Shown in pieces: positions 1,504 to 19,881 of a stretch of 20,335 nucleotides of DNA. Positions within the stretch are counted from its first letter, which is position 1. The number at the start of each line of letters is the position of its first letter. Source of the DNA: a virus; IMG/VR virus record IMGVR_UViG_3300027779_000209, positions 1-20,335 of that record. One strand, given 5' to 3'. A model generated the notes under the pieces. It saw only the letters and a list, made by a program, of their open reading frames with translations. It made no database searches and was not told the DNA's origin. A program made the position numbers and the translations under genes.

Positions 1504-4068
1504 ATGGCTAGAGTTGCAGTTCAACTAACGAACTTTACGGGTGGTGAATTATCTCCACGATTAGATGGGAGAACTGATCTTACCAAATATACATCAGGCT
1601 GTTCAACTTTAGAAAATTTAGTTGTTTATCCTCATGGTGCTGCCGCAAGGAGACCAGGCTCAACTTTTGTTGCCGAAGTTGCAGACAGCGATAATAAAAC
1701 AAGATTAATTCCTTTTGAATTTTCAACAACACAAACTTATATGTTGGAGTTCTCAAATTTAAAAATAAGATTCTATAAAGATAATGGTTCAATTTTAGAA
1801 GGCGATAAAACAATAACAGCAATTACTCAAGCTAATCCTGCTGTCGTTACATCTACTTCACATGGTTACTCCAATGGAGATGAAGTTGTTATTACTGCTG
1901 TGGTAGGAATGACACAGGTTAATGGTAAAAGATTTTTAGTTGCAGGTAAAACAACAAACACTTTTCAATTAACAGATAAAGATGGAACAAATGTAAACAG
2001 CACAGGGTATACTGCTTATGGTTCTGCTGGAATTTCTAATAAAGTTTATGAAATTACCACTCCTTATACAACAGCTCAACTGTTTGATATTAAGTTTGCA
2101 CAATCTGCTGATGTTATGTACATCACGCATCCTTCTCACGAAGTAGAAAAACTATCTCGGACAGCTCATACTACTTGGACATTAACTGATGTTGATTTTA
2201 CCAATGGACCATTCATGGATGTTAATACAACAGCAACCACTTTAACACCAGCTTCTGCTGGAGTAGGAACAGGCGTTAATATTACTGCATCCGCAATTAC
2301 AGGAATTAATGGTGGTGCAGGTTGGAAAACAACTGATGTGGGTAGACAAATTTATTTTAATGCTGGTTATGCAACAATCACAGCAAGAACAAATACTACA
2401 GTTGTGGTGGTTACTATTACTACAGCATTTACTAACACTAATGCTATTACTGCTTGGCAACTAGGATCATTTTCAGATACCACAGGTCATCCTTCTTGCG
2501 TTACCTTTTTTGAACAGCGATTAGTTTTTGCTGGAACAACAGATCAACCTCAAACCATATTCTTTTCTAAATCAGGTGATTATGAAAACATGGATGAAAA
2601 TATTGGCGGAACAATAGCTGATGATGATGCTATCGTTTATACGATTGCTTCTAACCAAGTTAATGCTATTCGTTTTATGACAGCAACAAGAACTTTAATT
2701 ATTGGTACAGCAGGGGGTGAGTTTACTGTATCAGGCGGTGGTACAGATAGTGCAGTTACTCCAACAAATATTTTAATTAAGAAACAATCTAATCATGGTT
2801 CTGCAAATGTAGATGCAATAGCTGTAGGCAATGCAACATTATTTTTACAACGTGCTAAAAGAAAAATAAGAGAACTAGCTTATAACTTTGATGTAGATGG
2901 TTACACAGCACCTGATATGACTATCCTTGCCGAGCATATTACTGAAGGTGGATTAACACAAATTGCTTATCAACAAGAACCTAATCAAATTATTTATGGA
3001 GTTAGAAGTGATGGTGAATTAATAGGATTAACTTATCAAAGAGAACAATTAGTAACCGCTTGGCATAGACATGTTTTTGGTGGAAGATTTGGTATAGCAA
3101 CACTTACAGTTTCAGATTATGCAAATATTGCAACTGGTACTAAATTAACTTTAACAAAATCAGATGGTACAACTGTTAATTTTACATCAACAACAGGTAC
3201 TGCTGGAACAGATGAATTTAAAACTGAAACAAACAATGATGCTACAGCTACTAATTTAAAAACTGCCATTAATACTCATGCTGATTTTACTGCTACAGTA
3301 GCAAGTGCAGTTGTAACAATTACCGAAACATCACCTGGTGCAACAGGATATTTAACAATTAAAAGTTTTGATTCAACACGATTAACAGCAGTAAGTGAAA
3401 GTAAAGCAGCTATTGAAAGTGTTTCAGTTATACCAACTGATGATACTGAATATCAAGTTTGGGTTATTATTAAAAGAACTGTCAATTCAATTACTAGAAG
3501 ATATGTAGAATATCTAAATGTATTTGATTTTGACCAAACAGATAACACAACATTTAATTTTTTAGATAGTGCGTTAAGTTATAGTGGTGTAGCAGTTTCA
3601 ACTATTTCAGGTTTAGATCACCTTGAAGGACAAGTTGTAGGAATATTAGCTGATGGTGCAACGCACCCCAATAAAACTGTAGCTTCAGGATCTATTACTT
3701 TAGATCGTTCATCTAAAAATGTTAAGGTTGGATTAAATTATACTTCTTTATTACAAACGATGAGACTAGATGCGGGATCTCAAGATGGCACATCTCAAGG
3801 TAAGACTAAAAGAATTTACGATATTACAGTTAGAATGTATGAAACAATAGGTGTAGAGGTTGGACCTAATTTAAATGACATGGAAAGAATACCTTTCAGA
3901 AGTTCCTCTGATCTTATGGATGAGGGTATTCCCCCATTCTCAGGAGACAAACAAGTTGAATTTAGAGGTAACTATGAAACAGATGGGTTTATCTATGTAA
4001 GACAAACTCAACCTTTACCTTTTACTATTTTATCGTTATACCCAAGGTTAGCTACCAATGACGGATAA
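1504..4068 (+). CDS. Tail tubular protein B / nozzle (T7 gp12-like)
   Basis: An 854-residue protein, the tube or nozzle component below tail tubular protein A. The N-terminus (LTNFTGGELSPRLDGRTDL, then LENLVVYPHGAAARRPGS) is typical of the gp12/nozzle family. Two extra domains can be seen. Residues about 104-176 carry an HGYSNGDEV...G-M-T-Q-V-N-G-K-R-F pattern of the FCCH-like beta insertion common in phage nozzle proteins. Residues about 530-630 have a second beta-rich, Thr-rich insertion (LTLTKSDGTTVNF...ATATNLKTAI) of a kind that recurs in phage tail proteins. It is a little longer than T7 gp12 (794 residues). Such inserts may face outward and contact the host surface. The gene overlaps the next one by 11 bases. 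Confidence 0.9.
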   Translation: MARVAVQLTNFTGGELSPRLDGRTDLTKYTSGCSTLENLVVYPHGAAARRPGSTFVAEVADSDNKTRLIPFEFSTTQTYMLEFSNLKIRFYKDNGSILEGDKTITAITQANPAVVTSTSHGYSNGDEVVITAVVGMTQVNGKRFLVAGKTTNTFQLTDKDGTNVNSTGYTAYGSAGISNKVYEITTPYTTAQLFDIKFAQSADVMYITHPSHEVEKLSRTAHTTWTLTDVDFTNGPFMDVNTTATTLTPASAGVGTGVNITASAITGINGGAGWKTTDVGRQIYFNAGYATITARTNTTVVVVTITTAFTNTNAITAWQLGSFSDTTGHPSCVTFFEQRLVFAGTTDQPQTIFFSKSGDYENMDENIGGTIADDDAIVYTIASNQVNAIRFMTATRTLIIGTAGGEFTVSGGGTDSAVTPTNILIKKQSNHGSANVDAIAVGNATLFLQRAKRKIRELAYNFDVDGYTAPDMTILAEHITEGGLTQIAYQQEPNQIIYGVRSDGELIGLTYQREQLVTAWHRHVFGGRFGIATLTVSDYANIATGTKLTLTKSDGTTVNFTSTTGTAGTDEFKTETNNDATATNLKTAINTHADFTATVASAVVTITETSPGATGYLTIKSFDSTRLTAVSESKAAIESVSVIPTDDTEYQVWVIIKRTVNSITRRYVEYLNVFDFDQTDNTTFNFLDSALSYSGVAVSTISGLDHLEGQVVGILADGATHPNKTVASGSITLDRSSKNVKVGLNYTSLLQTMRLDAGSQDGTSQGKTKRIYDITVRMYETIGVEVGPNLNDMERIPFRSSSDLMDEGIPPFSGDKQVEFRGNYETDGFIYVRQTQPLPFTILSLYPRLATNDG

Positions 4069-4968: not shown

Positions 4969-5186
4969 TGAGAGATTATAAATCAGAATATAATAATTAC
5001 CACTCTAAACCAAAACAAAAAAAGAATAGAGCTGGAAGAAATGGAGCAAGAAGAATTATGAAAAAAAAATATGGCTCTAGTATATTAGCTAGAGATGTAG
5101 ATCACAAAGATAGAAATCCTAGAAATAACAGTATAGGTAATTTAAGATTACAATCCAAATCTTCAAATAGATCAAGGAATCAATAA
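4968..5186 (+). CDS. Small HNH endonuclease (HNH_3-like)
   Basis: A 72-residue, strongly basic protein. The C-terminal half has the short phage HNH pattern: D45-H46-K-D48, then N53-N54, then N58-L59-R60, and N67 with following basic residues. This matches the H-x-D...N-N...NLR...N-x-N layout of HNH_3-type nucleases. The first 35 residues are Lys/Arg/Asn-rich and may bind DNA. It overlaps both neighbours by one base (TAATG at each end), so it is translated as part of the virion-core operon and does not look like an inserted transcription unit. It could be a homing-type nuclease of the free-standing kind or a nuclease used in packaging or ejection. The substrate is unknown. Confidence 0.7.
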   Translation: MRDYKSEYNNYHSKPKQKKNRAGRNGARRIMKKKYGSSILARDVDHKDRNPRNNSIGNLRLQSKSSNRSRNQ

Positions 5187-13417: not shown

Positions 13418-13969
13418 ATGTTTTTTAAAGTTGTAGAAAACTTTTTACCAAAACAGGTTTTTGATAGATTGTTAATGATTGTTGAAAGTGAAGAATTAAA
13501 TTGGCATTGGTCTGCCTCAACACATTACGATAAAAATAAAAAAGAGTTAGATAGTAATTTTATGTTAAGTAAAATGATATTTAACCACAAACAATCAACA
13601 AATGGTTATTACGAAGATAAAAAATATTTACAACTATTTTGTTTAATTGCTGATTATCAACAATCTATAAAAAAAGCTAATAATTTAATCAGAATGAAAT
13701 TAAATCTTTATCCTAATCAAGGAAAAAATGTAAAGCACGCAAAGCACGTTGATATGATGTTAGACAAAAAGATTGATAATAGAGTTATGACTTCTATTTT
13801 TAACTTTCATACCTGTAATGGCTCAACAGTTATTGAATTAGATGATAAAATAGAAGAAGTTAAATCTAAAGCTAATCAATTAATTATGTTTGATAATACG
13901 TGGCATTATGGTATTACTCAATCAGACACACCAAGAAGAATTGTATTAAATATTAATGTTTTAAAATGA
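13418..13969 (+). CDS. 2-oxoglutarate/Fe(II) oxygenase (prolyl 4-hydroxylase-like)
   Basis: A 183-residue enzyme of the 2OG-Fe(II) dioxygenase class. The metal-binding triad is visible: H110-x-D112 in AKHVDMM and H163 in NTWHYG. The 2-oxoglutarate-binding basic residue is R173 or R174 in PRRIVLNI. The order and spacing (about 50 residues from HxD to the distal His, 10-11 to Arg) fit the family. Such enzymes use O2 and 2-oxoglutarate to hydroxylate proteins, nucleic acids or small molecules. They are common in marine phages, where substrates are mostly unknown. The gene overlaps the next oxygenase-like gene by 4 bases (ATGA), and both follow the tail fibre genes. Confidence 0.82.
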   Translation: MFFKVVENFLPKQVFDRLLMIVESEELNWHWSASTHYDKNKKELDSNFMLSKMIFNHKQSTNGYYEDKKYLQLFCLIADYQQSIKKANNLIRMKLNLYPNQGKNVKHAKHVDMMLDKKIDNRVMTSIFNFHTCNGSTVIELDDKIEEVKSKANQLIMFDNTWHYGITQSDTPRRIVLNINVLK

Positions 13970-14505
13970 AATTAGAATTATTTTCAGTACCTGTTTTTAT
14001 AGGTAATGTAGATTTAAAAAAAATTAAGTTAGATGCAGAAATGGGAGAAGCTTTTCTTTCAAAAACTCCTAGTTCTTTTTACAATAAAAATATATTAGAC
14101 CCTGAAAGTGGTAAATATCTTATATCGGTTATTGCTGAGTTATTAAAAGAAAAATACCAATATTTTACAGTTAATTTAAACGGAGTATGGAGAAATAAAT
14201 ATTTGAATAATGATTTTCAAGAGCCACACATTCATGTAGGTTCTCAGTTTTCTTTTATTCTTTATGAAGAGGTTAATACTCCGCACACTATTTTTTACAA
14301 TCCAGCTAAATATTTAATATCAGCAACACTAGGTCCTAGCGATGCTTATGTTTTACAGCAATTTAAACCGCAGGTAACAAAGGGTCAAATTATAGTTTTT
14401 CCATCTTATGTTGAACACATGGTTAATAAAAATTCGGATCAGGTAACTATATCAGGAAATTTAGATTTTAAATTTATTAACAAATTAACGAAAGAAAAAG
14501 AATAA
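13966..14505 (+). CDS. 2OG-Fe(II) oxygenase-like protein (Oxy_5 type), atypical
   Basis: A 179-residue protein with the layout of the short 2OG-FeII_Oxy_5 family found in marine phages and bacteria. It has LFSVPVF at the start, GVWRNKYLNN at 73-82, H88-I-H90 with GSQFSFILY, and GQIIVFPSYVEHMV with H151. The normally conserved Arg that should follow about ten residues after the distal His (usually eRisisfN) is absent: the stretch reads S-D-Q-V-T-I-S-G-N. Without it, 2-oxoglutarate binding may be changed or lost. It could be an active variant, a non-catalytic partner of the neighbouring oxygenase, or a binding protein. It is translationally coupled to the preceding gene. Confidence 0.7.
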   Translation: MKLELFSVPVFIGNVDLKKIKLDAEMGEAFLSKTPSSFYNKNILDPESGKYLISVIAELLKEKYQYFTVNLNGVWRNKYLNNDFQEPHIHVGSQFSFILYEEVNTPHTIFYNPAKYLISATLGPSDAYVLQQFKPQVTKGQIIVFPSYVEHMVNKNSDQVTISGNLDFKFINKLTKEKE

Positions 14506-14517
14506 TAAATTATTAAT

Positions 14518-15303
14518 ATGTCACTTGAAAAAGTTATTCGTTACATTAATAGTAAAGTTGAAGGACACGATGTTACTGTAGGACAGATGTACGGCACTGA
14601 AAATTTTTGTCATCTTCTTTATTCTTTAGTTAAAATGGAACAACCTGATACTATAATAGAACTTGGTGTAGGAGCAGGAGCTACTACTTGTATGATGGCA
14701 CAGGCAGTAAAAGAGAATAATAAAGGATTTGTATTTGCAATAGACAATGGCGATCAATGGAAAGAAATGAAAATTCCATTACAGAAAATTTTAGGAGAAT
14801 CTTTAGCTGATGAATCTTATGAAAACTTTTTACATAAACTTTTAGAAAAACTAGAGTTAGAAAAGTATGTTGATTTTAAAAATATTACTTTAACTAATAA
14901 ACAATTTTTTGATCCAAAAAAACCAGTAGACCTTTTATTTTTTGATGCTCACGATAGTGGTCCATTAGGCTGTATAAGTTTATTGCATTATTATCTACCT
15001 AAAATGAATAAGTATTCTTCTATTTTTATTGATAGAGCCTCTACTATTCATCATGCTTATTTAGTGCTTGAACAAATAATAAAACACTTTCAAAATAAAG
15101 AAATACCAGAATGTTTACTTTCTGAACTTGATGATAAACAGATAAAAAATTTACGACATATAGTTTCTACTTCAAAATTTACATTAATACATTTAACAGA
15201 AACAGGAAAAGCTAAAATAAATAAGACACAAAATAGTACAGCATGGATAAAGATTGAACCTATTGATTTATATCATCATAATCATGTTGAAACTTTTGTT
15301 TAA
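14518..15303 (+). CDS. SAM-dependent methyltransferase, class I
   Basis: A 261-residue protein with a Rossmann-type methyltransferase core. Motif I is E48-L-G-V-G-A-G-A-T-T, the acidic end of strand 2 is AIDNGD near residue 76, and the strand-4 segment is LLFFDAHD at about 139-146. A late strand, SSIFIDRAST, lies near residues 167-176. It looks closest to the small-molecule O-methyltransferase / Methyltransf_24 group and lacks the NPPY or DPPY motif of DNA adenine or N4-cytosine methyltransferases, so DNA modification is less likely. It follows two 2OG oxygenase-like genes after a 12-base spacer, and the three may form a modification cassette. Protein, glycan or metabolite could be the substrate. 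Confidence 0.72.
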   Translation: MSLEKVIRYINSKVEGHDVTVGQMYGTENFCHLLYSLVKMEQPDTIIELGVGAGATTCMMAQAVKENNKGFVFAIDNGDQWKEMKIPLQKILGESLADESYENFLHKLLEKLELEKYVDFKNITLTNKQFFDPKKPVDLLFFDAHDSGPLGCISLLHYYLPKMNKYSSIFIDRASTIHHAYLVLEQIIKHFQNKEIPECLLSELDDKQIKNLRHIVSTSKFTLIHLTETGKAKINKTQNSTAWIKIEPIDLYHHNHVETFV

Positions 15304-15405: not shown

Positions 15406-15703
15406 AAGAAAAACTGCAAATGTAGGTTTAGTTAATGAACTTGCTGCACAGCTTGATTTTGCAAAAGACGTAAATATTGTAGTCTTTACACCTTTAGGTG
15501 GTTTAGGACCTGTGGATATTGTGACTTTAAATTTAACTACAGGTGAGTATAGTGCTTATGATGTTAAAAGTAAAAATTATAGAAAATCAAACTATAGAGA
15601 TAAAGATGGTTATAAAAGAAAAAGTATTGGATCTTTTATTTCAAGAGGAAGAACTAAAGAGCAAAGAAAATTAAAGGTAAAAATTATTTATGCAACTATC
15701 TAA
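15398..15703 (+). CDS. PD-(D/E)XK family endonuclease
   Basis: A 101-residue basic protein from ATG 15398. A TTG at 15383 would add five residues but overlaps the micropeptide more, so the ATG is chosen. The pattern is that of a small PD-(D/E)XK nuclease: E14 in the first helix (GLVNELAAQL), P38-V-D40 after a Gly-rich loop, then D55-V-K57 on the next strand (YSAYDVKSKN). A Lys/Arg-rich C-terminus follows. Related folds include Holliday junction resolvases and group-I-intron-type endonucleases. It may cut branched DNA, as T7 endonuclease I does, or degrade host DNA. It overlaps the endolysin start by 14 bases and sits in the lysis operon, an unusual place for such an enzyme. Confidence 0.68.
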   Translation: MRKRKTANVGLVNELAAQLDFAKDVNIVVFTPLGGLGPVDIVTLNLTTGEYSAYDVKSKNYRKSNYRDKDGYKRKSIGSFISRGRTKEQRKLKVKIIYATI

Positions 15704-16187
15704 ACATTTTAAATTAGAAGAATTTACACGTAGTCAAATTGCGGCAAGAAATGGATTAAGTAATACTCCAGGATCAGGTGAGGTTAAGAACCTAGAAAAC
15801 ATTTGCTATGAAATACTAGAGCCTGTGAGAGCTAAGTTTGCAAAACCTATTATGATTAATAGTGGTTATAGATCCTTAGAGGTTAATCGTAAACTAGGAT
15901 CAAGTGATTCGTCACAGCACACCAAAGGTCAAGCAGTTGACTTTGAAATAGCAGGTATTCACAATCTTAAAGTTGCACATTGGATTAAAGATAACTGTGA
16001 TTACGATCAATTAATCCTTGAGTTTTATAAACCAACAGAAAAAAATGCGGGGTGGATTCACGTGAGCTATAATGAAAAAGGAAACAATAGAAAAAAAGTT
16101 TTAACCTTCGATGGTAAGTCTTATGAAAATGGATTACCTGAGATGAATTACAAATATGATAAGATGGGAAATGAGGTGATAGTATAA
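15690..16187 (+). CDS. Endolysin, peptidase M15 (D-Ala-D-Ala carboxypeptidase type)
   Basis: A 165-residue protein with the M15A zinc peptidase pattern: NSGYRS at 57-62, S-Q-H77-T-K-G-Q-A-V-D84 (zinc ligands His and Asp), then the catalytic-Glu region DQLILE111, and GWIH124VSY with the third zinc ligand. Such enzymes cut peptide bonds in peptidoglycan and serve as endolysins in many marine phages. There is no signal peptide, so it needs the holin encoded directly behind it. The start overlaps the nuclease gene and its stop shares a base with the holin start (TAATG). Since the gp16-like protein shows no transglycosylase, this is the only peptidoglycan-degrading enzyme seen here. Confidence 0.9.
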   Translation: MQLSKHFKLEEFTRSQIAARNGLSNTPGSGEVKNLENICYEILEPVRAKFAKPIMINSGYRSLEVNRKLGSSDSSQHTKGQAVDFEIAGIHNLKVAHWIKDNCDYDQLILEFYKPTEKNAGWIHVSYNEKGNNRKKVLTFDGKSYENGLPEMNYKYDKMGNEVIV

Positions 16188-16564: not shown

Positions 16565-16926
16565 TGAAAGTATCAGATAAAACATCAGTAAGTATGCCAA
16601 TCAAAAATATGATTGGTATTATTGCTGCGGTTTCTATGGGTATCTTTGCATACACAGAACTAACCAGTAGGCTTACTTCACTTGAGACATCAAGAGAATT
16701 ATTCCAAGCTGATTTACTTAAAAAATCTGAGCAATTGCCTGTGGACCAGGAACAATTTATGTTGGTGGAAGATTTATATAAGACAGTAGAGAAGTTAGAA
16801 AAAACCCAAGAACAAAACATGACCAACAAAGTTAATATAGAATTTTTAAATAAACAATTAGAAAAAGCTTTAGGAGATATAGAAAAATTAAAAGATAAAG
16901 TAAGAAAAAATGGAGGAACACATTAA
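16564..16926 (+). CDS. Membrane-anchored coiled-coil protein, possible inner-membrane spanin
   Basis: A 120-residue protein with one N-terminal membrane segment (about 14-30, KNMIGIIAAVSMGIFAY) and then a continuous acidic/basic coiled coil (about 32-115, with heptad-like L/I spacing such as LEKALGDIEKLKDKV). The N-in/C-out arrangement and the place directly after the holin match an inner-membrane spanin, which bridges the periplasm and disrupts the outer membrane. No lipobox-bearing outer-membrane partner was found overlapping it, so the spanin role is not proven. A second protein of the same design lies at 17947-18258. Confidence 0.6.
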   Translation: MKVSDKTSVSMPIKNMIGIIAAVSMGIFAYTELTSRLTSLETSRELFQADLLKKSEQLPVDQEQFMLVEDLYKTVEKLEKTQEQNMTNKVNIEFLNKQLEKALGDIEKLKDKVRKNGGTH

Positions 16927-17141
16927 TGACTGAAGTAGTAGTGGCTTTATTAATGTTTCTGAATGGAAACATGATTGAGTTTACTTATAAAGATACAATG
17001 TCAGCTTGTTTAAAAAGTAAGCGTATTGCTATGAGAGAAATAAATCCTGATACTGTTCTTATGTCTTGTAAAAAAATAAAAGCTGAGACAGAGATATATC
17101 AGGGTAGAAAAAAAATACTTAAAGTTTTAGAAGTAAAATAA
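16926..17141 (+). CDS. Small exported protein with two cysteines
   Basis: A 71-residue protein with a short hydrophobic start (VVVALLMFLNG) and two cysteines (C28 and C48, the second in MSCKKI), then a basic tail. The hydrophobic segment could be a short signal or anchor, and the cysteines could form a disulphide bond in the periplasm. It overlaps the spanin-like gene by one base. The opening (hydrophobic stretch, N/Q-G-x-x, E-F) resembles that of the protein at 17720-17950, which also has two cysteines. I do not recognise a family; a lysis or superinfection role is only a guess from the neighbours. Confidence 0.55.
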   Translation: MTEVVVALLMFLNGNMIEFTYKDTMSACLKSKRIAMREINPDTVLMSCKKIKAETEIYQGRKKILKVLEVK

Positions 17142-17143
17142 TT

Positions 17144-17290
17144 ATGGCTAAGTGTAAAGATTGTTTTTGTGATTGTCATTGTAGTGTTAAAGGACACTCC
17201 GATGCCACAGGTGTATGTCCTTGCGAGAAATGTAATTGTAATCCTCAAGGTGCTAAAGTAAATGATGATGAGTGTCTCTCATGTCAGTAG
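17144..17290 (+). CDS. Metallothionein-like cysteine-rich protein (48 aa)
   Basis: A 48-residue frame starting 2 bases after the preceding stop, with no separate ribosome binding site, so re-initiation is likely. It has 11 cysteines (23%) and two histidines but no Trp, Tyr, Ile or Arg and only one Phe. The pattern is C4-x2-C7-x-C9-x-C11-x-C13 with H12, then C25-x-C27-x2-C30-x-C32, then C44-x2-C47. Dense CxC and CxxC clusters joined by a short hydrophilic linker are the hallmark of metallothioneins, which bind several Zn, Cu or Cd ions through thiolates. The small size, hydrophilic nature and lack of a signal suggest a cytosolic metal buffer. A structural zinc-cluster protein or an assembly factor is the alternative. 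No metal-responsive site was seen. Confidence 0.7.
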   Translation: MAKCKDCFCDCHCSVKGHSDATGVCPCEKCNCNPQGAKVNDDECLSCQ

Positions 17291-17300
17291 ATAAAACAAA

Positions 17301-17510
17301 ATGACTTTAGCAAAATTTGATCCAAGACATATAGATCATTATAATGAACCAAGATTTCTAGTTCACTTTCAATGGGGTACTAATGAAAAAGTTTATCGTT
17401 ATGCTTTAGTTGAAACGATTAATACAAATGAAATTGACCACACCACTAAACAAAAACAAGATGAATTAGGTTTGTCTCAAAAAGAAATTTGGGAGAAAAA
17501 ATATAAATGA
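17301..17510 (+). CDS. Small unknown protein with HF...VYRY motif (second copy)
   Basis: A 69-residue soluble protein of unknown function. Its middle (FLVHFQWGTNEKVYRYALVE) resembles the core of the small protein at 717-917, with HF and VYRY-x-L-V-(D/E) in the same order; outside that core the two differ. The N-terminus (KFDPRHIDHYNEPR) is His-rich, with three histidines, and the C-terminus is a Lys/Gln helix. It begins 10 bases after the cysteine-rich gene and ends in an ATGA overlap with a basic peptide frame. Two related copies, one beside the tail tube genes and one in the accessory region, point to a useful small domain, perhaps for protein binding. Confidence 0.6.
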   Translation: MTLAKFDPRHIDHYNEPRFLVHFQWGTNEKVYRYALVETINTNEIDHTTKQKQDELGLSQKEIWEKKYK

Positions 17511-19063: not shown

Positions 19064-19246
19064 ATGATTGATAATATAATATTAAAATTTTGTGATCTAA
19101 TAGATCAATTCCATGATTGGATTAATAATCTATTTGCACCGCGTTGTAAGTGTGGCAAAAATAAATCTAAACCTACATCTAGCAAGGAGTGGGTCAAAGG
19201 TTATAATAAGCAAAAAAAAATAAATGAAAAAGAAAACTTGGGTTAA
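19064..19246 (+). CDS. Small unknown protein with CKC motif
   Basis: A 60-residue protein. The first 25 residues are an amphipathic, partly acidic helix with two Trp/His-containing turns (FHDWINNLF). R-C28-K-C30-G-K-N-K and a Lys/Ser-rich tail with EWVKGYNKQKK follow. A third cysteine is at position 10. One CxC pair is too little for a zinc finger by itself; a metal site shared with another chain is possible. It overlaps the following gene by 23 bases. The family is not recognised. Confidence 0.45.
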   Translation: MIDNIILKFCDLIDQFHDWINNLFAPRCKCGKNKSKPTSSKEWVKGYNKQKKINEKENLG

Positions 19247-19400
19247 GCCAAAAAATCAAATTGTATTTTGTGGTTGTTGTGAGGTATGTAATAAACAATT
19301 ATATTCTGATACGGGTGGTTGGATTATTAATGCTGAGAAAAAAAGTTTTTGCCACAATGGAGTAGACGAGTTGTGCTTTGATACTTATCTTAATCGTTAA
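19224..19400 (+). CDS. Small zinc-finger-like protein (CxCCxxC...C...C)
   Basis: A 58-residue protein with a Lys-rich start (MKKKTWVKPK) and six cysteines: C16-x-C18-C19-x2-C22 in VFCGCCEVCNKQLY, C43-H44 in KSFCHNG, and C51 in ELCFD. A CxxC knuckle followed about 20 residues later by C-H and C suggests a treble-clef or zinc-ribbon domain of the sort found in small phage regulators. It overlaps the gene before it by 23 bases. Its last 11 bases are shared, in opposite sense, with the end of the DnaA-like gene on the minus strand. It is the last plus-strand gene. Whether it binds DNA or a protein is unknown. Confidence 0.6.
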   Translation: MKKKTWVKPKNQIVFCGCCEVCNKQLYSDTGGWIINAEKKSFCHNGVDELCFDTYLNR

Positions 19401-19407
19401 GTAAAGT
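19383..19407. terminator. Possible weak hairpin at the meeting point of the two gene sets (tentative)
   Basis: An imperfect inverted repeat lies exactly where the plus-strand and minus-strand genes meet: CTTAA (19389-19393) pairs with TTAAG (19397-19401) around a TCG loop, then a 2x2 mismatch, then ACTT/AAGT. It is AT-rich with only a short T-tract on the right, so any terminator activity would be weak. The position between converging genes is the main argument. Confidence 0.2.
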
Positions 19408-19881
19408 TTCAAAGTCTTTCCAAATCGTTTCATTCTCTTTCCAAAATCTTCGCTTATCCCGTTTCATATGAACTGAATTTAATACTGTCGTATGATCTTG
19501 ACCAAAGCGATGACCAATCATGGGTAGGCTCATGTTATATTTTTCTCTTAAAATATTATAAATGATACTTCTTGCTCGAACCAAATGTCCCTTACGACAT
19601 TTTCCTAAGACTTGATCTTTGGGAACCTCCAAACGAATACAAACTTTATTAATAAGACTATCAATCATTACTTTGGGTGCTTTATTGGAAAACGTTTCTT
19701 TCTTTTTTATAATTTGATTGGATTTAATATAATGAATAGTTTTCTTGGTGTGTTTCTTGGCTAACTTATAACCATTTCTAAAAGCATTTTTATAAATACT
19801 TTTTTCAACGTGAGATAAATCACGATAATGTCCAGCTCTGAGAGCCACCCTTAATTCCGAAATAATTTCTATTGAAGTCAA
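19390..19881 (-). CDS. DnaA domain IV-like DNA-binding protein (no AAA+ domain)
   Basis: A 163-residue basic protein. Residues about 70-160 match the C-terminal DNA-binding domain of the replication initiator DnaA: VCIRLEV..DQVLGKCRKGHLVRARSIIYNIL, then SLPMIGHRFGQDHTTVLNSV. DnaA normally reads F-G-G-R-D-H-T-T-V; here it is F-G-Q-D-H-T-T-V, one residue shorter, without the Arg that contacts the DnaA box. Residues 1-66 are helical and basic and show no Walker motifs, so the ATPase part is absent. The first possible start is TTG (no ATG before Met72). It may bind origin-like DNA to start phage replication, or compete with host DnaA. It ends by running 11 bases into the last plus-strand gene. 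Confidence 0.8.
   Translation of the reverse strand: MTSIEIISELRVALRAGHYRDLSHVEKSIYKNAFRNGYKLAKKHTKKTIHYIKSNQIIKKKETFSNKAPKVMIDSLINKVCIRLEVPKDQVLGKCRKGHLVRARSIIYNILREKYNMSLPMIGHRFGQDHTTVLNSVHMKRDKRRFWKENETIWKDFETLLND

Follow-up and report, generated by a model that had tools for sequence, protein, structure and literature searches.

An open reading frame of 48 codons, 11 of which encode cysteine, raises the questions of whether it is a gene at all and of what so cysteine-rich a protein would do for a virus. The frame, hereafter ORF1, lies at 17144-17290 (+) in IMG/VR record IMGVR_UViG_3300027779_000209, a virus fragment of 20,335 nucleotides that is called the window. An earlier note, made from the sequence letters, had proposed a phage-encoded metallothionein-like protein. 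Here, we examine the coding status, conservation, distribution and likely function of ORF1 and its relatives.

ORF1 and its setting in the window

ORF1 is intact and translates to MAKCKDCFCDCHCSVKGHSDATGVCPCEKCNCNPQGAKVNDDECLSCQ, 48 residues with a single aromatic residue and with the cysteines in the groups C4xxCxCxCxC13, C25xCxxCxC32 and C44xxC47. This agrees in full with the earlier description, which had listed 11 cysteines in these groups, two histidines and few aromatics. The strand opposite 17144-17290 holds no comparable coding content. The features discussed below are as follows.

15690-16187, + strand: peptidase M15 endolysin (PF08291, phrog_894), about 1 kb upstream of ORF1 in the same gene run
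16926-17141, + strand: upstream gene of 71 aa (PHROG match, phrog_24646), its stop 2 nt before the ORF1 start
17144-17290, + strand: ORF1, metallothionein-like, 48 aa with 11 Cys and 2 His (translation, family members, dN/dS)
17153-17182, + strand: ORF1 N-terminal ligand group CxxCx[C/H]xCHC, codons 4-13 (anchored sample, n=55)
17195-17218, + strand: ORF1 loop HxDxYGxC, in the window HSDATGVC, codons 18-25 (alignments, n=104 and n=55)
17216-17239, + strand: ORF1 second ligand group CxCxxCx[C/H], codons 25-32 (anchored sample, n=55)
17273-17287, + strand: ORF1 C-terminal CxxCQ, codons 44-48, missing from some relatives (anchored sample, n=55)
17281-17304, + strand: ORF2 remnant MSVDKTK, 7 codons and then TGA at 17302-17304 (downstream reading of loci)
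17301-17510, + strand: downstream ORF of 69 aa with no family match, its start codon overlapping the stop of the ORF2 remnant

On sequence, the window phage is an HTVC010P-type pelagiphage. Its tail tube B protein (1504-4068) has 82% identity to the counterpart in Pelagibacter phage HTVC010P, and nucleotide similarity to that phage runs through the endolysin region (the endolysin scores E 5e-21 with Pfam PF08291 and E 3e-46 with phrog_894) to about 16914. ORF1 is placed directly past the point where the shared sequence ends. Because the family HMM detected no ORF1 family member in the examined 24-kb regions of HTVC010P and HTVC034P, we regard ORF1 as an accessory gene in the window phage; neither phage is among the tblastn matches of ORF1 in the whole phage collection. 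With an ATG 2 nt past the preceding stop, in a run of genes on the same strand, ORF1 looks like a member of an operon. The 71-aa gene upstream also has a homologue in 023P-type loci. Near ORF1, neither metal-responsive regulation nor a transporter gene was identified, and promoter-like sites show no excess over what an AT-rich region would give; scans of the window for tRNA and Rfam families gave no match.

Several other genes of the window were recorded. Two adjacent genes (13418-13969 and 13966-14505) resemble 2OG-Fe(II) oxygenases, with PF13640 below and PF13759 above the cut-off, and are followed by a Methyltransf_24 gene (14518-15303). The gene at 19390-19881 (-), on the strand opposite to the late genes, encodes 163 aa with a match to the DnaA C-terminal domain (PF08299, E 7e-15), and near the end of the late run small ORFs at 19064-19246 and 19224-19400 contain cysteine pairs (CKCGK; CGCCEVC...FC).

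A family under purifying selection

The search for relatives that the earlier note had suggested was productive. Scans of viral contigs confirmed 50 relatives when queried with the window protein and at least 128 when queried with the family alignment, and tblastn over the phage collection placed the family in four named phage genomes. A relaxed search over all retrieved loci brings the family to at least 147 distinct proteins, with the consensus head [KR]CKxCx[C/H]xCHCxxxxHxDxYGxCxCxxCx[C/H]. For 41 close ORF1 nucleotide variants, the median pairwise dN/dS by a counting method is about 0.11, which indicates purifying selection and is a rough figure because the pairs are of common ancestry and dS is near 0.9. 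ORF1 is a real gene under selection, far beyond chance.

The second of these scans used the pattern C[KQ]xCx[CH]xCHC with an extra filter that demanded a second cysteine group, and the invariance of cysteine in the resulting 104-sequence alignment, in which the loop residues H18, D20 and G23 are near-invariant, is thus partly forced by selection of the sequences. Given this bias, we resampled the family by anchoring on the 215-aa gene found upstream of ORF1 in many loci. A family member lies within 1.2 kb (HMM E <0.001) in 52 of the 75 usable anchored loci, a proportion that is not a population frequency because the best 80 anchor matches favour phages close to gene carriers; several of the other loci have a divergent cysteine-rich ORF in the same place, and the remainder have none. 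The anchored alignment contains 55 distinct ORF1 proteins, most of them chosen by HMM or by a relaxed cysteine regular expression, a selection that could miss a cysteine-poor homologue at an anchored site.

In these 55 sequences, C4, C11 and C13 of the N-terminal group are always present and C7 and H12 are each present in 54, while residue 9 varies among C (35), H (15) and K (5). The loop ligands H18 and C25 are found in 47/55 and 49/55, respectively; C27 and C30 of the second group are in 55/55, and residue 32 is either C (51) or H (4). Each protein has 8-11 cysteines, and within the core the mean modal frequency is 0.94 for cysteine columns versus 0.45 for non-ligand columns. The idea that all 11 cysteines are conserved thus holds for the core, where the columns apart from position 9 are retained in 49-55 sequences, and fails at position 9 and at the C-terminal CxxC, which is kept in 33/55. 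Histidine is the main replacement of cysteine at position 9 (15/20 changes) and the sole one at position 32 (4/4), and the five K9 sequences all lack both H18 and the first cysteine of CxCxxC, a co-loss that may be one event of common origin. Such swaps and joint losses form the pattern that would be expected where residues share putative metal sites. Broken frames or lost cysteines in relatives, which the earlier note had named as evidence that would count against its reading, were not what loci chosen without regard to cysteine revealed; one family member, at 5001-5117 of locus L042, appears to be frameshifted by one base near codon 33, and this may be a sequencing error since the rest of its tail can be read in a different frame.

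A second small frame and a recurring tail motif

A small second ORF, ORF2, occurs at the end of ORF1 in 63 of the 147 cases, usually starting within the last ORF1 codons; in the window, codons 46-48 overlap its start. The earlier note had mentioned neither ORF2, nor its truncation in the window, nor the HxDxYGxC loop. Intact ORF2 proteins of relatives are of a Cys3-His kind, roughly 37-70 aa long, and an alignment of 55 of them has invariant C9, H12, E17, G20, C22 and C23; the AlphaFold model of ORF2 reaches pLDDT 67.8 and pTM 0.36. Past the point where the window remnant ends, these proteins read on as K[C/T]CxxHxxEKExxGxCCQ. Nucleotide similarity of the window to 023P-type loci stops at 17303, where the unrelated gene 17301-17510 begins, and the remnant looks like a recombination scar in which ORF1 and the first ORF2 codons would have been joined to new sequence.

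A tail motif of the [ST][YF]E type is present in 40/147 ORF1s and in 51/63 ORF2s. None of the 40 ORF1s with the motif has an adjacent ORF2, versus 63/107 of the others (Fisher p 1.5e-12, uncorrected for shared descent).

Distribution and genome context

As the earlier note held, the gene is phage-encoded. It was found in phage genomes and viral contigs, and among 297 sampled SAR11-family genomes, some possibly incomplete, in 1/297, on a phage-like contig. A search of 84,980 species genomes gave one confirmed relative, this same one, which comes from a single-cell assembly of the Pelagibacteraceae; its contig also encodes phage PolA and helicase. One annotated relative was sampled at 3010 m. 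When ORF1 was considered as a host-derived auxiliary metabolic gene, no homologue was found on a SAR11 chromosome in the 297 genomes sampled. In that possibly incomplete set, the bacterial metallothionein family PF02069 was detected in 0/297. Four further genomes from a class-wide search (E ~0.008 over 18-25 residues) were rejected as noise, and a match in HTVC033P (E 0.5) lay inside a DUF3310 gene and failed the HMM.

Fragments that encode an HTVC023P-type polymerase make up most of the ORF1 relatives. Of 122 ORF1 loci, 97 contain a family A DNA polymerase, nearly always upstream, with 023Pt_psg01 and HTVC027P/HTVC023P as its nearest named relatives. The four named genomes are Autographiviridae, and in them the gene lies directly before the capsid gene. 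It has no annotation in HTVC041P and KT997847, whereas Gjalp and Eyrgjafa, where the protein has 54 aa, list it as a 'hypothetical protein'; the suggestion that gene callers overlook so short a frame is thus correct for the first two and wrong for the others. Position varies by lineage, with the gene following the polymerase, lying among the late or lysis genes, or preceding the capsid gene. Loci L001 and L058 encode an identical ORF1 protein within flanks that are related but diverged, and this, together with the spread over lineages, suggests movement between phage lineages.

Two neighbours of the gene deserve mention. The 215-aa gene upstream (L061 5357-6004 and 84 further loci) is called 'ferredoxin' in PHROGs and its slot 'PurM' in GenBank; both labels look doubtful, since they conflict and Pfam gives no match for the protein. 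In L043 (4656-4988) and L049 (3971-4303), ORF1 is followed at a short distance by a NifU-domain gene (PF01106, E 1e-20), and this cluster occurs in 5/122 loci, which are HTVC023P-like; many of the 122 loci are short.

Proposed function and alternatives

On balance, we think it likely that ORF1 buffers metal as a metallothionein-like protein made by the phage. Supporting this are the 8-11 cysteines with usually 1-2 histidines, arranged in CxC-rich groups, under purifying selection and shared by several pelagiphage lineages, with almost no trace in the SAR11-family genomes sampled; multinuclear Zn/Cu thiolate clusters typically contain CxC repeats. The protein would be expected to wrap around a small metal-thiolate cluster, with Zn(II) as the likeliest metal, and its core of nine cysteines and two histidines could hold about 3-4 ions by comparison with SmtA, a number that is a guess because AlphaFold confidence is low. 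Modelled without metal from the 104 alignment rows minus three from annotated phage records, ORF1 reached pLDDT 61 and pTM 0.33 with almost no secondary structure, and the absence of a metal-free fold would be expected of a metal buffer without being diagnostic of one. Made during infection, the protein may hold and hand over zinc or, alternatively, keep zinc and other soft metals off the phage machinery, in a streamlined host in whose sampled genomes no PF02069 metallothionein was found. In many relatives, ORF2, with its invariant CxxH...CC, would add a second site that the window phage appears to have lost. The M15 endolysin was considered as a zinc client and rejected, as an M15 gene is near ORF1 in few loci, many of those short.

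Several results count against the buffer: neither metal-responsive regulation nor a transporter gene was identified near ORF1, its genome position varies by lineage, and its likeness to known metallothioneins stops at cysteine spacing. The conservation that argues against a plain buffer is that of the HxDxYGxC loop, which exceeds what a plain chelator would need and suggests a specific fold or partner. Together with the tail motif, it makes a folded zinc-binding adaptor the main rival: the Cys/His head would contain structural zinc, one or two ions of it, and the protein would act in takeover by binding a nucleic acid or a protein of the host, with the variable tail ([ST][YF]E or ECxxCQ) docking. 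Conserved non-ligand residues (H-x-D-x-Y-G), a tail that recurs in ORF1s or ORF2s with the ORF1 motif never beside an ORF2, and the closeness of the gene to DNA polymerase in 023P-type loci all speak for an adaptor. However, 11 cysteines in 48 residues with stacked CxC exceed the need of one or two mononuclear sites, zinc-finger profiles from Pfam, PHROG and PDB do not match ORF1, and a cysteine number that varies among relatives is unusual for a fixed finger; we therefore consider this reading unlikely, though it carries real weight. Somewhat more doubtful is the idea that ORF1 and ORF2 form a modular, phage-only metal module, in which the head is combined either with an [ST][YF]E-type tail of its own or with an overlapping Cys3-His ORF2 that has this motif, and the tail docks the metal-loaded head on a host target to redirect or strip zinc.

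A role as an iron-sulfur or redox helper, working with Fe-S proteins of the phage (the NifU-domain protein, for example) or as a thiol redox buffer, would suit the nearby NifU gene and the 'ferredoxin' label of the 215-aa family. We find it improbable, since NifU is near so few of the loci (short as many are), the label is itself doubtful, and near-invariant histidines with C/H swaps suit zinc better than Fe-S. There is next to no chance that ORF1 is a random or decaying frame, or one kept only by its overlap with the ORF2 start. The overlap and the frameshift in L042 would fit, but purifying selection across the coding frame (dN/dS) and conservation in the anchored loci refute a chance frame, and ORF1 is conserved in loci that lack ORF2, including the window with its broken copy. 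The metal buffer therefore remains our preferred reading of ORF1, which probably works like a metallothionein, with Zn(II) as the predicted metal, and represents a new family.

Few ocean bacteria are as abundant as SAR11, many of which are killed by their phages. If ORF1 does buffer metal, infection would alter how SAR11 cells retain and release zinc and other scarce trace metals. Since the cultured phages Gjalp and Eyrgjafa (strain HTCC1062) and HTVC041P (HTCC1063) carry the gene, the metal-binding idea is directly testable.

Comparison with known families

ORF1 has no significant match in Pfam, NCBIfam or PADLOC and none to a defence protein; family matches to GASA, UFD1 and GatB in Pfam (E 0.02-0.4) fall below the cut-off and were dismissed as cysteine-composition noise. 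A test for zinc fingers and ribbons gave no significant Pfam, PHROG or PDB profile and no PDB chain at E 10 (profile A1). The phage family phrog_6389 (72 positions) matches ORF1 residues 5-37 weakly (E 0.022), which is below significance, and 3/16 ORF1 family members match it. The sole SmtA-like match in the phage collection, in 'Microcystis phage MaAM05' (MW495066.1 111778-111939, L140), was not counted as a phage metallothionein, since FabI and EngB are encoded in that record, whose DNA looks bacterial.

The ORF1 family usually resides in the HTVC023P-type pelagiphage region of polymerase, '215-aa/PurM' and small genes; unlike typical carriers, the examined regions of HTVC027P and 023Pt_psg01 lack ORF1. 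The text of a paper on HTVC023P-type pelagiphage genomes (PMC9599517) contains neither zinc nor metallothionein, and no report of a phage-encoded metallothionein was found in the open-access literature.

Calling ORF1 metallothionein-like, as the earlier note did, is borne out by a ligand set under selection and does not extend to membership of PF02069. At E 10, 0/16 family members match that family; SmtA scores 18.7 bits against the ORF1 profile, where shuffled SmtA with cysteine positions kept averages 19.6; and hhalign gives a probability of 5% over 10 columns. Likeness to SmtA and further bacterial metallothioneins in the PDB appears limited to cysteine spacing. Like BmtA/SmtA (PF02069; PDB 1jjd, 6gv6, 6gv7), ORF1 is small, has about 20% cysteine and CxC motifs, and is likely to use histidines as ligands, and its segment VCPCEKCNC resembles KCACEPCLC of those proteins; unlike them, it has its cysteine groups in a different order and lacks a YCxxxCxxxH segment. 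The ligand set of cyanobacterial SmtA is Zn4Cys9His2, and the ORF1 core of 9 Cys and 2 His has the same ligand count. In the broad sense, a metallothionein is a small, cysteine-rich, CxC-containing and metal-binding protein. In size and cysteine content ORF1 is of this kind, with 48 aa, 11 Cys and CxC/CxxC clusters, and in the anchored set its family conserves cysteine far above other residues. The family appears to be undescribed, with a mode of action that appears to be of a known kind.
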